IMG/VR virus record: IMGVR_UViG_3300027659_000233
Span: 1 to 22,312 of that record
Origin: a virus
Direction: 5' to 3' (one strand)
DNA length: 22,312 nucleotides
The number at the start of each line of letters is the position of its first letter. Within the stretch, counting starts at the first letter, position 1. The notes beneath the pieces are model-generated. The model was not told the DNA's origin and did not search any database. It saw only the letters and a program-made list of their open reading frames with translations. A program made the translations under genes and the position numbers. Below, one piece after another: positions 5,543 through 22,203 of this stretch.

Positions 5543-7344
5543 TGGCTCTATCTAATCAGCGCTTTGTGACTACATGGACAAGCGAAGACGGGGTCTTATG
5601 GCGCATGTATATCATACCAAGCAGTATAGACTACATAAGCAGCGGCGTAAGCTCAAATGTTACCTTGCCTGCAGAGTTTTTATTGCGTGATATGACTCTT
5701 GATACCGAGCTTGGTAATATACCGGCTGGGCTCGTTGGTCAAGTGCTCAAGATCAATGTCAATATAGCCGCTTTGCAGGGCACTAATGCACTCAATGACC
5801 TTCGCACTGATCTATTACGAGGCACTACGGCAAAGCGCGTGCCTTTGAATAGCGATGGATCGGGCTATCTTGCATCCGACCTGACCCTTGCAGAACGTGA
5901 ATTTGATGCATTCAATACATTTGTGCTTCAGTATGATGATGGCTCTGGCTACAAGAGCGCATTTATAGGATGCCAAAAGTACAGCGCGGAAAATGAGCTT
6001 GAGATCACCGCTCTTGACAATGTAGTCAAGTTCACAATAGAGATATTTGATATCAATCGTTGCATCGGTGAAATAGTTAACCAGACAATCTGGACAAAAG
6101 CTCTAAAATGCACAAGTGATGTAGTCAATTACAGTATCACTATGTCACAGCCGGAAAATACCGAAGTTAAAGAGATGTTTATTGGCTACCCGTATATCAA
6201 TACGGATATAACACCCGGATCTATCTCGGCAAAAGACTACGCTCCAGGCGATAGCTACATGCATATATCTACTTTTGATCGACTCAAGACCAAAATAAAT
6301 ACGATGTATAGTGCATATATGAGGGCAATCACTCAAAAGCTTACATCAAGCTTTGTAGCTGATGACTTTTTTGCAAAGACAATGGTCTTTTTTCAAAGCC
6401 AATATGTAATACAAATCAATACTTACCTATGCTATGTAGCAGAGATATGGACAACGGTAGATAGTCAACTTGTACTTGCTGGCGGGGCTCATGTAGATAA
6501 AGGATTATTTGGTCAGTTTACAAATTTTTATGAAGTGTATAAAAGCATTGTTGAAGGATCAGTAGAAACGCTCCGACCATCATATACTTTCACAAGCGGA
6601 ACGCCTGATGCATATACCTTGACTATGGTAGGTAGCAATCCCTATCCATATCCATCCGTTGCAACCTTTGATGAAGATAATACCTATAGCAGTCTCAAAA
6701 TAAAGATGTTCAGTGAAGCGCTTAATCAAGTAAATGTAACAGTATCTACAATAACAGGCGAAGCTGATACAACAGAGTATGGATATGGCAAGCAAGGGAC
6801 AAGCGGTGATAATAGCAAAGACTTAAAAATCATGTTTCATAATTTGCCCTTAATCACGTTCCGTAATGGCTATAAAGATGAGGGCGGATTAGGCAAAATA
6901 TGGTATCGCAATACAGTCAATGCAGGGACTTTGCTTTATTGGGATATCTACGGCTTTACAAAACCCCAAACTTCATGCAGTTTGTTTTTTGGTGGTGAAG
7001 ACTTTGCTTTGCCAGTGCAACCATCACTCTATCTCAAGCGACCTGAATATCAAATGATATTAGAGCAACAGACAAGCGGCGCAGCTACAACTATAGCAGC
7101 TGCAATGGTTAATTTTTTAGGACGACCAAAGCAAGCCGAGGCTACTTTGACAAGCCGCTTTGTAACCATCAAGCCTGCAGACGTTGCAAAGCGTTGCGAG
7201 GTGGATCTAAATGATTACAATAGTCTGCTCTATGCAATATATGGGCAAAACACAGCCTACGGGGTGCTCACAAAACACTCGCATAAAGTTTACGAAGGTA
7301 TGTGTGATCTCACAATCAGAATAGATGCGGAGCCATTATCATGA
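5542..7344 (+). CDS. large tail tip / baseplate protein (hub candidate)
   Basis: 600 residues. Second gene after the tape measure, where tail hub or baseplate proteins usually lie. The N-terminus (T-T-W-T-S-E-D-G-V-L-W-R-M-Y-I) looks like an edge-strand-rich beta domain. The middle (about 190-460) is Tyr/Thr-rich and beta-like, and the C-terminal ~100 residues turn polar and helical (D-L-N-D-Y-N-S-L-L-Y). No peptidase, lysozyme or glycosidase motif seen. AGGAG lies about 7 bases before ATG 5542. The stop overlaps the next start (ATGA at 7341). Structural role inferred from position and size only; it could also be a receptor-binding protein. Confidence 0.5.
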   Translation: MALSNQRFVTTWTSEDGVLWRMYIIPSSIDYISSGVSSNVTLPAEFLLRDMTLDTELGNIPAGLVGQVLKINVNIAALQGTNALNDLRTDLLRGTTAKRVPLNSDGSGYLASDLTLAEREFDAFNTFVLQYDDGSGYKSAFIGCQKYSAENELEITALDNVVKFTIEIFDINRCIGEIVNQTIWTKALKCTSDVVNYSITMSQPENTEVKEMFIGYPYINTDITPGSISAKDYAPGDSYMHISTFDRLKTKINTMYSAYMRAITQKLTSSFVADDFFAKTMVFFQSQYVIQINTYLCYVAEIWTTVDSQLVLAGGAHVDKGLFGQFTNFYEVYKSIVEGSVETLRPSYTFTSGTPDAYTLTMVGSNPYPYPSVATFDEDNTYSSLKIKMFSEALNQVNVTVSTITGEADTTEYGYGKQGTSGDNSKDLKIMFHNLPLITFRNGYKDEGGLGKIWYRNTVNAGTLLYWDIYGFTKPQTSCSLFFGGEDFALPVQPSLYLKRPEYQMILEQQTSGAATTIAAAMVNFLGRPKQAEATLTSRFVTIKPADVAKRCEVDLNDYNSLLYAIYGQNTAYGVLTKHSHKVYEGMCDLTIRIDAEPLS

Positions 7345-8099
7345 AATTCAATGAACCCGTAAGGCCTGCCGGTATAGGTCGCAAGCAAGTCGCTTTTGAT
7401 GTCAACCGCAACCCCTCTGCATTTACTATTGTTGAAGATGTCGAGAATACACAGACCGATCCGCAGTCAAATGAGGCGCAAAATGTAGCCACCTTTGCAA
7501 ATGCCACTGCCATGAGCCGTGCTATTGCTTATTCAGCTGCAAGTAGTGCGATAGTGACTAATCAGAATGATGTCTGGAGTACTCAATCGATACAAGACTG
7601 GACTCACTTTGGTAGTAGTTTCGGGCCGTCATCTTCATATATCAAATGGGCTAATCCCGATCCGGATAATCTACTCAATATACGCAGCCCGCTTGCCTAT
7701 GTAGATAGCGAAGATCCCACAATCGTGAGAGTCAATAGACCGGGCTGGTATCTTGTCAGCGTAAATTTTTACCAAGGCGATCACTCACTGAATAACTATG
7801 TAAATGAGCTCACAGTAGTATCGGCTGATAGCGTAGATACAACTACGGCGCGTGCAAAGATGTACTCACATGGCTATCCGAGTTTAGGTATATGCCAAGT
7901 CGTACCAGTGCCAGGCTACGGTGCAAGTGGTAATGCTGCATCGCCAAATGATATACACAGTAAAGGCGGCTTTATTGCAGTGTACACAATAGGAGCTCAT
8001 AATGGTAACCTATCTATCACTGCAGCCAATTCATACGCAAGCATGCAGATCATTTGGCTACGGCCTTGGGAAGAAAACTTCTTTTATAATGGAGCTTAA
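7341..8099 (+). CDS. tail fibre-like protein with C-terminal jelly-roll-like region
   Basis: 252 residues. The first ~70 are polar and look like an attachment segment. The C-terminal part (about 125-250) has the strand pattern of a C1q/TNF-type jelly roll: T-I-V-R-V-N-R-P-G-W-Y-L-V-S-V-N-F-Y early, then L-S-I-T-A-A-N-S-Y-A-S-M-Q-I-I-W-L-R-P as the last strands. In phage tails such folds often form trimeric receptor-binding or tip domains. It starts within the preceding stop (ATGA), with an A-rich leader and no strong Shine-Dalgarno, so translational coupling is likely. The fold is judged by eye. Confidence 0.45.
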   Translation: MKFNEPVRPAGIGRKQVAFDVNRNPSAFTIVEDVENTQTDPQSNEAQNVATFANATAMSRAIAYSAASSAIVTNQNDVWSTQSIQDWTHFGSSFGPSSSYIKWANPDPDNLLNIRSPLAYVDSEDPTIVRVNRPGWYLVSVNFYQGDHSLNNYVNELTVVSADSVDTTTARAKMYSHGYPSLGICQVVPVPGYGASGNAASPNDIHSKGGFIAVYTIGAHNGNLSITAANSYASMQIIWLRPWEENFFYNGA

Positions 8100-19677: not shown

Positions 19678-20247
19678 GTGGAGCATTATTACGGCGAGAT
19701 ACATGGCTGGTTCGATTATCAGGAAGTCTATGACATAGCCATAGGCACGGCGAGTGATGGCGCTCGCTTTGTAGAGGTCGGAGCTTGGAAGGGCAGGAGT
19801 GCAGCGTATGCCGGTGTTGAGATTATCAACTCTGGCAAGAAGATCACCTTGCACGTGATTGATCACTTTCTTGGAAGCGAAGACCACCGGGACTCAAGCT
19901 CAAAACACTTCGAGCCGTTGACATGTGTTGAAGATGGCTTGTACAAATTGTGTAAAGAGAACCTTAAGCCGGTCAGAAAGGTAGTCAAGATTGTGCGGAT
20001 GGACTCGCTTGATGCGGTCAGCTTGTATGATGTTGCGAGCTTAGACTTTGTTTTTATCGATGGCTCGCATGACTATGACTCGGTTTGCAAGGATATTGAT
20101 GCATGGCTGCCAAAGGTCAAGCCAAATGGTATCTTGGCTGGCCATGACTACCGATATTATGAAGGCGTGCGACGTGCAGTGGATAGCAAATTAGAGGGCG
20201 CTCAACCAATTGGAGCGTCTTGGATATATTACAAATTAGGAGAGTAG
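19678..20247 (+). CDS. class I SAM-dependent methyltransferase (Methyltransf_24-like)
   Basis: 189 residues from GTG 19678, with AGGAG eight bases upstream. Motif I F-V-E-V-G-A-W-K-G (31-39) binds SAM; D62 in H-V-I-D follows the second strand; L-D-F-V-F-I-D-G-S-H-D-Y (122-133) and G-I-L-A-G-H-D-Y (151-158) are typical of small-molecule/sugar O-methyltransferases of the MT24 group. No DNA-methyltransferase N-P-P-Y or cysteine-loop motif, so base methylation is unlikely. Two genes downstream lies a galactosyltransferase, suggesting sugar modification. Substrate unknown. Confidence 0.8.
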   Translation: MEHYYGEIHGWFDYQEVYDIAIGTASDGARFVEVGAWKGRSAAYAGVEIINSGKKITLHVIDHFLGSEDHRDSSSKHFEPLTCVEDGLYKLCKENLKPVRKVVKIVRMDSLDAVSLYDVASLDFVFIDGSHDYDSVCKDIDAWLPKVKPNGILAGHDYRYYEGVRRAVDSKLEGAQPIGASWIYYKLGE

Positions 20248-20249
20248 AG

Positions 20250-20576
20250 ATGGCAAAGATCGAGATTAGTGGTGAGGTAGCTTTTAGAGGCGAGCCTGTA
20301 AAGTATTCGGACAAGTTCACAAAGGCCGAGATCGTGATCAAGGATGTGACAAGCAAGTATCCAGAGTTCATCAAGTTCGAGGCGATCAATGACAAGGTCG
20401 ATATGCTACTTGGCATGAGGGTCGGTATGCAGGTCACAGCCGAGGGCTTTCTTGGTGGTAAGGAATACACAAAGAAGGATGGCACGATTGGCTATATCAC
20501 AAGCATTAAGCTTGCAAAGATTTACGAGAACAAACCAGCCGCGCCTGCGGTGACTCAAGATGCTGTACCATTTTGA
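20250..20576 (+). CDS. single-stranded DNA-binding protein, DUF3127-like OB fold
   Basis: 108 residues from ATG 20250 (AGGAGA seven bases before). The pattern I-E-I-S-G-E-V, K-A-E-I-V-I, Y-P-E-F-I-K-F-E-A, D-M-L-L-G-M-R-V-G and Y-I-T-S-I-K-L-A-K-I fits the DUF3127 family of Bacteroidota SSB-like proteins. The end D-A-V-P-F resembles the D-D-I-P-F tail by which SSB recruits partners. It probably coats single-stranded DNA for the Sak4-like recombinase and the replication helicases. Overlaps the next gene by 17 bases. Confidence 0.75.
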   Translation: MAKIEISGEVAFRGEPVKYSDKFTKAEIVIKDVTSKYPEFIKFEAINDKVDMLLGMRVGMQVTAEGFLGGKEYTKKDGTIGYITSIKLAKIYENKPAAPAVTQDAVPF

Positions 20577-20823
20577 TGACCATAACTTTGAGGAGCTGCC
20601 TACATTGGAATGGGAAGAGCTACGCCTTAACAATTACAAAACAGAACTGATCAAGAACGGCGTGCCTTTCGAGGCGCGCCTCTTTCAGGTCGAGAAGTCT
20701 TGGAAGCTCAAGCTGACAAATAAGATGACGGGCAAGTATGCTCTTGAGTTACGGTTCAGGGACTTGAGTCTGAATGATGCGATGGTGAAAGCAGAGTATT
20801 ACATCTTGGAAAACCTTGAATGA
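20560..20823 (+). CDS. small hypothetical protein
   Basis: 87 residues, starting inside the SSB gene (overlap 17 bases) with a weak ribosome site. Acidic N-terminus (F-D-D-H-N-F-E-E-L-P-T-L-E-W-E-E-L), then a beta-rich segment (S-W-K-L-K-L-T-N-K-M-T-G-K-Y-A-L-E-L) and a helix. No family recognised. It ends four bases into the galactosyltransferase start. Possible SSB partner by position only. Confidence 0.55.
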   Translation: MLYHFDDHNFEELPTLEWEELRLNNYKTELIKNGVPFEARLFQVEKSWKLKLTNKMTGKYALELRFRDLSLNDAMVKAEYYILENLE

Positions 20824-21452
20824 GATTAGAGGTAGTGATCCCGTATAGGGATCGTGAAGAACATTTGAGAAAGCAAGTGCCTCATTTGTGGAAGGTGCTA
20901 AATGATCAAGGTCTTGACTTTGGTATTACGGTTGTAGAGCAAGAGCAAGGCAAGAAGTTTAATCTCGGCAAGATCCGGAATGTAGGATTTATCGAGTCGC
21001 CTGATGCAGAGTACTATTGCTTTCACGATGTTGATATGTACGCTGAAGATGTAGACTACTCATATACTGATATGCCTACGCATTTGGCTTATGCTTGTGA
21101 GCAGTTTGGCTATGAGCTTCCCTATCGGACGTTCTTTGGAGGCGTGCAGTTATTTGACAAGGCCTCGTATATCAAGGTCAATGGTCACTCAAATGACTAC
21201 TGGGGATGGGGCGCTGAAGATGATGATATGTATTGGAGATGCACGTTAACAGGGTTTAAGCGTAGGCAAGGGCGGTTCTGGTGTGATGACCACAAGAGAC
21301 CCGGCGCTGGTGCTACGCAGAAAGAGAACCATAATAAGTTCAGAGCTAATATGCTTGAGACTGAACGGAGCGGCTTGAGTAATTGTGAATACAAAGTAAT
21401 TGAAGTGAAGCAATTTAATTCACGGCTTCGCACTATTTTAGTATCTATTTAA
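20820..21452 (+). CDS. beta-1,4-galactosyltransferase-like enzyme, GT7 family
   Basis: 210 residues, starting in an ATGA overlap. Animal beta4-GalT landmarks occur in order: V-I-P-Y-R-D-R-E-E-H-L (6-16), F-N-L-G-K-I-R-N-V-G-F (47-57), F-H-D-V-D-M (68-73, metal-binding DVD), L-P-Y-R-T-F-F-G-G-V (100-109), N-G-H-S-N-D-Y-W-G-W-G-A-E-D-D-D (121-136), C-D-D-H (155-158, metal His), and G-L-S-N-C-E-Y-K-V-I-E-V (185-196). It should transfer a hexose from UDP-sugar to a GlcNAc-like or other acceptor. There is no membrane anchor, so it is a cytosolic catalytic domain. The donor-gating tyrosine (Tyr289 of human B4GALT1) is Phe105, and the Met344 metal ligand is Cys155. Substrate unknown. Confidence 0.85.
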   Translation: MRLEVVIPYRDREEHLRKQVPHLWKVLNDQGLDFGITVVEQEQGKKFNLGKIRNVGFIESPDAEYYCFHDVDMYAEDVDYSYTDMPTHLAYACEQFGYELPYRTFFGGVQLFDKASYIKVNGHSNDYWGWGAEDDDMYWRCTLTGFKRRQGRFWCDDHKRPGAGATQKENHNKFRANMLETERSGLSNCEYKVIEVKQFNSRLRTILVSI

Positions 21453-21467
21453 TTGGATCAAAACAAC

Positions 21468-21734
21468 ATGGACACAATCAAGACTTTTGTGCCTTTGCTT
21501 GTGCTATCAGTGATAGCACTTGGCGCAACTCTCGGAGTTGGAGATGGGAGCTTCAGCACATTCGCAGTCGGTCTGACAAAGTATGCTTTGGCAGTTGGAG
21601 CGGCGTGGTTTGTGGATTCTTACTTAATCAAGGAGGTAAATACTCGTGAAGTTATCAGTACGAACCCTATTGCTTACGCTTTGTTTTTGGCTGCAAATAT
21701 CATCACAGCCGCTTTATGCTTCTCACAGTCTTAA
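21468..21734 (+). CDS. holin-like membrane protein
   Basis: 88 residues from ATG 21468; an in-frame TTG at 21453 would add five. Three hydrophobic segments (about 7-24, 31-50, 67-84) separated by short charged loops make it a class I holin candidate. It sits directly before the endolysin gene, the usual lysis order, and its last 89 bases overlap that gene in another frame. No strong ribosome site before ATG 21468, which may keep expression low until late. Function inferred from topology and neighbour. Confidence 0.65.
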   Translation: MDTIKTFVPLLVLSVIALGATLGVGDGSFSTFAVGLTKYALAVGAAWFVDSYLIKEVNTREVISTNPIAYALFLAANIITAALCFSQS

Positions 21735-22203
21735 GGTACTGACCATAGCCAAGGGCTTTATCGGTACAAAAGAAGAAGGGAATAATGGTGGCTATTGGGT
21801 TACTCGTTTTCAGAAAGTAACCAAGTCCCCAAAGGGCGCTCAATGGTGTGCATCATTTGTCAACTTTTGTCTTGACTCTGCAGGGGTCAAGGGTTTGCCT
21901 TTTACCGGATCGGGTTTGGCTCGTCACTTTGCAACTCGCAATAAGACGATCAAGGCTACCGAGGTATTAAGCAAGAACATGCAGTTACCACCAGGCACAA
22001 TCATTGTATGGCGAAGAGGCACTACGCCTTTTGGTCATGCAGGCATAGTTGATACATGGAAGGGAAAAAAGGGTACGACCGTTGAAGGCAATACAAGCTC
22101 GGGGCTTAAGGGCTCGCAGCATGATGGTGATGGTGTTTGGGGTCGCACCCGCACAATCAACCCTACAAACTACTTTAGGATAACAGATTTTATTGTCTAT
22201 TAA
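21646..22203 (+). CDS. CHAP-domain endolysin with signal peptide
   Basis: 185 residues from GTG 21646, behind AAGGAGG nine bases upstream. An N-terminal signal peptide is visible: K-L-S-V-R, hydrophobic L-L-L-T-L-C-F-W-L, and L-Y-A-S with a likely cut after Ala25, so it may be exported by the host Sec system. The CHAP amidase/peptidase domain follows, with Cys68 in A-Q-W-C-A-S, His131 in F-G-H-A-G-I-V, and E147/N149 as third residue candidates. It cleaves host peptidoglycan. The signal peptide code lies within the last 89 bases of the holin gene. Confidence 0.85.
   Translation: MKLSVRTLLLTLCFWLQISSQPLYASHSLKVLTIAKGFIGTKEEGNNGGYWVTRFQKVTKSPKGAQWCASFVNFCLDSAGVKGLPFTGSGLARHFATRNKTIKATEVLSKNMQLPPGTIIVWRRGTTPFGHAGIVDTWKGKKGTTVEGNTSSGLKGSQHDGDGVWGRTRTINPTNYFRITDFIVY

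Follow-up and report, generated by a model that had tools for sequence, protein, structure and literature searches.

A GT7-family glycosyltransferase encoded by uncultured phages, and the genes around it

Described systems closest to the locus

Glycosyltransferases of family GT7 have been studied mainly in animals, and demonstrations of protein glycosylation by phages are limited, to our knowledge, to a few that infect actinobacteria. The GT7 gene discussed here lies in IMG/VR virus record IMGVR_UViG_3300027659_000233, and the whole of the 22,312-nucleotide stretch that was analysed is called the window below.

B4GALT1 (CAZy GT7; PDB 1o0r, 1tvy, 2ae7) and the window protein have in common the GT-A fold, the D-V-D and W-G-W-G-x-E-D-D-D motifs, the metal ligand His347 and the C-terminal strands, and about 32% of residues are identical where the folds match. 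They differ in that the window protein has only 210 aa, with neither the membrane anchor nor the N-terminal region, and in the replacement of Arg228, Tyr289 and Met344 by Leu, Phe and Cys respectively; in the catalytic-domain pair Cys247-Cys266 of B4GALT1, it is Cys266 that is absent from the window protein. B4GALT7 (PDB 4irp, 3lw6) has the same fold and motifs (TM 0.76-0.82), and shares H-D-V-D with the window protein where B4GALT1 has S-D-V-D. However it scores lower than B4GALT1 against the window protein (2.7e-24 versus 5e-36), and it retains the Arg228 equivalent that the window protein has lost. Among predicted viral structures the best are giant-virus GT7s (for example A0A5J6VLB6, from a Megaviridae environmental sample), the top two having TM 0.79-0.84. 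These are larger proteins from viruses of eukaryotes, with 24-28% identity to the window protein, and the named phage proteins in that set are distant from our model (TM about 0.6).

With regard to the function that we propose, the likeness is to virion glycosylation in mycobacteriophages (Che8 and others, Freeman 2023), where phage enzymes are cited as glycosylating capsid and tail tube (PMC12619734 and PMC11256854). Those systems belong to actinobacterial phages and are likened here by function. With regard to variation, the available part of PMC7468147 describes metagenomic islands in cryoconite phages, and the genes exchanged within fixed backbones include glycosyltransferases and tail genes. 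These Bacteroidetes phages resemble the window group in having single-gene allelic exchange in an otherwise stable backbone, but that part of the account describes no GT7 or TylF-like methyltransferase alleles.

The GT7 protein and its donor pocket

By fold and by family the window ORF is a genuine GT7 enzyme. An earlier note on this DNA, made from the letters alone, had proposed that a phage encodes a catalytic domain of GT7/beta4GalT type, and its coordinates, strand and length of 210 residues are correct; the ATG overlaps the stop of the preceding gene (ATGA). Both profiles that the note had suggested as a check score above their Pfam cut-offs, PF02709 with E=4.4e-21 and 74.8 bits (cut-off 23) and PF13733 with E=9.7e-19 and 67.8 bits (cut-off 27), and bovine B4GALT1 is the best solved relative (phmmer E=5.1e-36, residues 3-200). 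An AlphaFold2 model based on the window protein together with six relatives from viruses (pLDDT 88, pTM 0.88) superposes on B4GALT1, as the note had expected, with TM 0.87-0.90, reaching 0.90 at 2.3 A. In a Foldseek search of the PDB the top 30 chains were all B4GALT1 or B4GALT7 (TM 0.76-0.90), and the next GT-A enzymes had TM 0.34-0.66. The dN/dS of about 0.09-0.15 indicates purifying selection.

An ordinary GT2-type enzyme that merely resembles GT7 could also have a DXD motif, which is common to GT-A folds, and the earlier note had named a better GT2 profile as evidence that would count against it. PF10111 gives a weak signal, with E of only 0.11, against 1e-19 to 1e-21 for the GT7 profiles. 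Given these scores, the phmmer match and the gap between B4GALT chains and other GT-A structures, we reject a GT2-type identity and see practically no chance of it.

A sequence scan found no membrane segment in the protein, and it begins at the first beta-strand without an N-terminal extension, so that the enzyme is probably cytosolic; the note too had called it soluble. Family membership predicts a UDP-sugar donor, Mn2+ dependence and inverting transfer.

The motifs quoted in the note are all present in the order given, F-H-D-V-D-M at residues 68-73, F-F-G-G-V at 105-109, Y-W-G-W-G-A-E-D-D-D at 127-136 and G-L-S-N-C-E-Y-K-V-I-E-V close to the C-terminus. For residue comparison we aligned 83 GT7 sequences, comprising the window protein, phage and bacterial proteins, bovine B4GALT1, and human and fly B4GALT7 (the human B4GALT7 PDB chain was retrieved by sequence query, and the match extends over its full length). 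In B4GALT1 numbering, Pro187, Asp252, Asp254, Gly292 and Asp318 are invariant, and Arg189, Arg191, Phe226, Asn227 and Trp314 nearly so. His347 is retained in the eukaryotes and in all phage members that do not have the lectin insert discussed below. The window protein has the equivalents of the metal motif (Asp70 and Asp72), the catalytic Asp (Asp134), the metal His (His158) and Trp314 (Trp130). Positions are given in Table 1.

Table 1. Genes and residues of the window discussed in the text, with B4GALT1 equivalents where relevant
Feature	Position	Strand	Basis
Methyltransferase gene, Methyltransf_24/TylF-like, SAM-dependent	19678..20247	+	PF13578 1.5e-18, PF05711 5.7e-4
DUF3127 gene, between both swapped genes	20253..20576	+	PF11325 3e-10; 100% identical in L007
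87-aa gene, overlaps GT7 start codon, conserved neighbour	20560..20823	+	ORF and synteny
GT7 glycosyltransferase gene, 210 aa	20820..21452	+	PF02709 and PF13733, B4GALT1 phmmer match, AF2 model, dN/dS
Leu49 codon = B4GALT1 Arg228, donor-sugar contact	20964..20966	+	alignment of 83 GT7s
D-V-D metal motif, Asp70-Val71-Asp72 = Asp252-Val253-Asp254	21027..21035	+	both Asp invariant, 83/83
Phe105 codon = B4GALT1 Tyr289	21132..21134	+	Tyr in 7/10 clade members
W-G-W-G-A-E-D-D-D; Asp134 = Asp318, presumed catalytic base	21201..21227	+	Asp318 equivalent invariant
Cys155-Asp-Asp-His158 = Met344...His347, metal site	21282..21293	+	alignment
Holin-like small membrane protein, directly downstream of GT7	21468..21734	+	hydrophobic segments, synteny
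CHAP-domain endolysin	21646..22203	+	PF05257 1.1e-8; PHROG endolysins

The earlier note had also aligned Phe105 with Tyr289 and Cys155 with Met344, which is right, and had argued from this pair that donor or metal preference may differ. That argument is weak at both positions. At position 344 Ser is found in nine of the 10 members of the window protein's clade and in 26 of 30 other phage GT7s, and among the sequences compared Met is peculiar to B4GALT1; at position 289 all 30 of the other phage proteins have Tyr, and the clade itself is mixed (7 Tyr, 3 Phe). The substitution overlooked in the note is that of Arg228 by Leu49, a loss of a donor-sugar contact that is specific to the clade. All 10 clade members have Thr (7) or Leu (3) at this position, whereas Arg or Lys is found in 46 of the 47 others (29 of 30 other phage proteins, non-LamG, all 14 bacterial and all three eukaryotic). 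Seven of the 10, the window protein not among them, also have Asp for Glu317 together with Ala or Ser at Gly315.

We infer from these residues that the donor pocket is altered in this clade. In B4GALT1 the R228K change gives higher glucosyltransferase activity, because the axial 4-OH of galactose is poorly bound (PMC4202792). As Arg228 helps B4GALT1 to read the galactose 4-OH and is lost in the clade, the clade's enzymes may use UDP-Glc or some other UDP-hexose as donor instead of UDP-Gal, and for the same reason we file the protein as a GT7 enzyme and not as a galactosyltransferase.

Distribution of the family and the phage neighbourhood

The census of phage homologues and the GT7 tree that the earlier note had called for place the window protein among phage proteins. 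A profile scan of IMG/VR gave 183 contigs encoding a GT7 relative, ranging from phages of about 38 kb near the window's to contigs of 373 kb. In contrast, tblastn with six different GT7 proteins against 50,697 deposited phage genomes gave no significant match (best E about 1), and this negative is informative as the same tool found matches there for both the primase and the methyltransferase of the window. PF13733 scored above its cut-off in 1 of 395 Bacteroidota, 5 of 151 Chlamydiota and 2 of 398 Pseudomonadota genomes, each of these counts including a genome picked because it had one, and in none of 14 control genomes. The family is thus widespread in uncultured phages and rare in bacteria. 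The term "animal-type" used in the note fits the fold and motifs but not the range of the family, which is also found in phages, in giant viruses and sporadically in bacteria. Full-text searches of open-licence papers found no earlier description of a phage GT7. A weak xylose isomerase match was rejected as resting on a local 'YYCFHDVD' string, and the bacterial loci L049-L051 were rejected as GT7 with only that string behind the match.

In the maximum-likelihood tree the window protein falls inside a starred clade of 10 phage proteins, and its closest relatives are phage proteins with 60-82% identity. The phage GT7s form many deep clades, with the bacterial and eukaryotic proteins among them, in a tree that has three eukaryotic sequences only, long branches and a root that is not fixed. 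The high similarity to B4GALT1 (E=5e-36) might suggest that a phage recently acquired a B4GALT gene from an animal. However, the clade around the window protein is all phage, its nearest relatives are phage proteins, and the bacterial and eukaryotic GT7s sit on separate long branches among deep phage clades, so that we regard such a capture as highly improbable.

Other architectures were seen in the family. Several large phage contigs (L073:4104-8966, also L074, L082, L087, L094, L095, L097, L042 and L043) have two or three clustered GT7s, each about 430-570 aa long, in which a Laminin_G_3 lectin domain interrupts the GT7 domain. In this unusual architecture the insert lies between W-G-W-G-x-E-D-D-D and the C-terminal strands. 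There are also GT2-GT7 fusions, in a phage contig (L060:5332-6633) and in an Elusimicrobia genome (L040:6960-8672), that recall two-domain polysaccharide synthases.

The window is a virus contig with the gene content of a phage, including a tape measure protein, a VapE-type primase and a CHAP endolysin, together with tail genes, a helicase, a nuclease, a DUF3127 gene and a holin-like gene. The primase has its best relatives in phages of Nonlabens, Cellulophaga and Flavobacterium (34-38% identity), which makes a Bacteroidota host likely. Because the window is a fragment (22 kb), further glycan genes may exist outside it. The L004 contig, of 38,147 bases, repeats the window's gene order, though permuted, and includes an HK97-type capsid gene as well as a tail gene of the Mtd_N type. 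That contig (L102:10955-11935) also encodes, within a segment absent from the window, an N6/N4 DNA methylase and one more helicase. About 30 relatives share the order nuclease, Methyltransf_24, DUF3127, 87-aa gene, GT7, holin, endolysin. The holin-like gene may have an alternative TTG start at 21453, and its product has a weak DUF350 match below the cut-off. Elsewhere in the window, the tail genes are followed by a gene (7341-8099) for a 252-aa protein that, in comparisons with four relatives, ranks among the least conserved against three (38-54% identity); it is a candidate receptor-binding or tip protein, with no family match over the cut-off.

TylF is a macrolide-sugar O-methyltransferase. 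The window methyltransferase scores 68.1 bits with Methyltransf_24 (cut-off 26.3) and 19.6 bits with TylF, below the cut-off of 23, and a sequence search of the PDB gave as its sole relative 6g7d (E=4e-8), which we take to be the mycobacterial mannoside 1-O-methyltransferase MeT1. That enzyme is described in PMC9883506. The gene product is probably a sugar O-methyltransferase, and the gene is present in every relative whose contig reaches that position. PHROGs (phrog_2675) and some RefSeq phage records label this family 'DNA methyltransferase', whereas Pfam and 6g7d point to small-molecule or sugar O-methyltransferases.

Other glycan-linked genes occur in the relatives. In 15 of them a further gene lies between the 87-aa gene and GT7, with a weak GT25 likeness (E=0.087) and a match to a PHROG named glucosyltransferase (1.4e-6); its structure model has pLDDT 33, and its profile gave no match in the PDB. 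L004, L005 and L007 have a GT2-like gene (weak, E=0.009) beside a putative major tail gene, and in L061, an unrelated phage, a Methyltransf_24 gene directly follows GT7. Other phage GT7s are near GT2, GT11, GT31, GT47, FkbM, UDP-galactopyranose mutase or epimerase genes. The scan of neighbouring families is a description and not an enrichment test, as glycan genes were found both near to and far from GT7. Cyanophages have Methyltransf_24 genes also away from recognisable glycosyltransferases, and the Mycobacterium phage relatives of the methyltransferase (Cheetobro), considered as a glycan link, were rejected because no recognisable glycosyltransferase adjoins them.

Apparent allele exchange and possible role of a proposed cassette

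Two independent pairs of closely related contigs differ at GT7 and the methyltransferase while the products of the neighbouring and intervening genes show 95-100% identity. In the pair formed by the window and L007 the nuclease, DUF3127 protein and primase are 100% and the 87-aa protein 99% identical, but the methyltransferases are only 62-63% and the GT7s 82% identical (the latter over the first 99 residues, where the L007 contig ends). Synonymous divergence is 0-0.19 for the neighbours, 1.05 for the methyltransferase and 0.83 for GT7, and it is this jump that makes the two look like replaced and not fast-evolving alleles. The tape measure gene and the next tail gene are also divergent in this pair. 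Between L003 and L006 the DUF3127 protein is 100%, holin 99%, endolysin 98% and helicase 95% identical, with the methyltransferase at 54% and GT7 at 70%. Both pairs are metagenome contigs, for which assembly chimerism is possible. As two conserved genes lie between them, GT7 and the methyltransferase appear to have been exchanged separately, and travel of their alleles as a single haplotype was rejected, the L007 methyltransferase being about equally far from both types. In a 47.5-kb record (IMGVR_UViG_3300032050_006297, which includes L006 and L015) two different GT7 alleles lie 37.1 kb apart, about one genome length, and the record is probably an assembly joining two related phages.

The pattern suggests that GT7 and the methyltransferase form an exchangeable glycan cassette that varies a sugar coat. 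In the mechanism that we propose, a soluble, metal-dependent GT-A-fold enzyme would use a UDP-sugar as donor and add its hexose to a glycan or a glycosylated protein, the nearby TylF-like enzyme would O-methylate the transferred sugar, the further glycosyltransferase-like genes of the relatives would add more sugars, and exchange of enzyme alleles by recombination would change the glycan. Virion proteins would be the most probable acceptor, since GT7 has no membrane part or recognised membrane partner, lysis genes adjoin it, and a GT2-like gene lies in the structural module of relatives. Activity, donor, acceptor, sugar methylation and benefit to the phage are what we infer, and we hold this reading as a whole tentatively, at somewhat short of even chances.

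The earlier note had offered virion proteins, host-surface glycans or modified DNA as targets, and of these DNA is now disfavoured while the other two both stand, with virion proteins favoured. If the target were at the host surface, GT7 and the methyltransferase would between them attach a sugar to a glycan of the capsule, LPS or S-layer, or to a precursor of one, in the infected cell and then cap it, so that competing phages would be kept from adsorbing or progeny from being lost on cell debris. We regard this as a serious rival, somewhat less likely than virion proteins. In the comparison of the window with L007, tail genes (tape measure, 5066) diverge along with the alleles of both genes, as would be expected if interaction with the host surface is what varies, and an RgpF-like (rhamnan) gene is near GT7 in L061. 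However no membrane transferase or flippase was recognised near GT7 in the window or the L004 record, and the adjoining lysis genes suggest late expression, when masking of receptors would gain little. The last of the three targets would have GT7 glycosylating a hydroxylated base of the phage genome and so evading restriction. Phage glycosyltransferases that modify DNA do exist (Pyle 2024, as cited in PMC12619734), and the DNA methylase of the L004 record makes restriction pressure plausible. Against this, no base hydroxylase was found among the genes scanned, and the thymidylate-synthase family, which covers the dCMP/dUMP hydroxymethylases, is missing from all 12 related records, some of which may be fragments, while nine of 14 control genomes were positive; this absence makes a DNA target very unlikely.

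In our judgement the locus adds a new branch to a known enzyme family, in a setting that has been little described, and is not a new kind of system. Its most interesting points would be the apparent change in the donor pocket and the exchange of both genes. The fullest form of our proposal, in which uncultured Bacteroidota-type phages exchange alleles of a donor-switched GT7 and, separately, of a sugar O-methyltransferase in an otherwise fixed genome, rewriting a methylated virion glycan and so varying their coat by recombination, we think rather unlikely, but if true it would be a coat-variation system built from an enzyme family with which animals modify glycans of their own. With swapped alleles in near-identical phages, the idea that phages adapt by varying glycosylation can be tested directly, and the large phage branch of GT7 offers minimal soluble enzymes and natural donor-pocket variants for studying how donor choice evolves.
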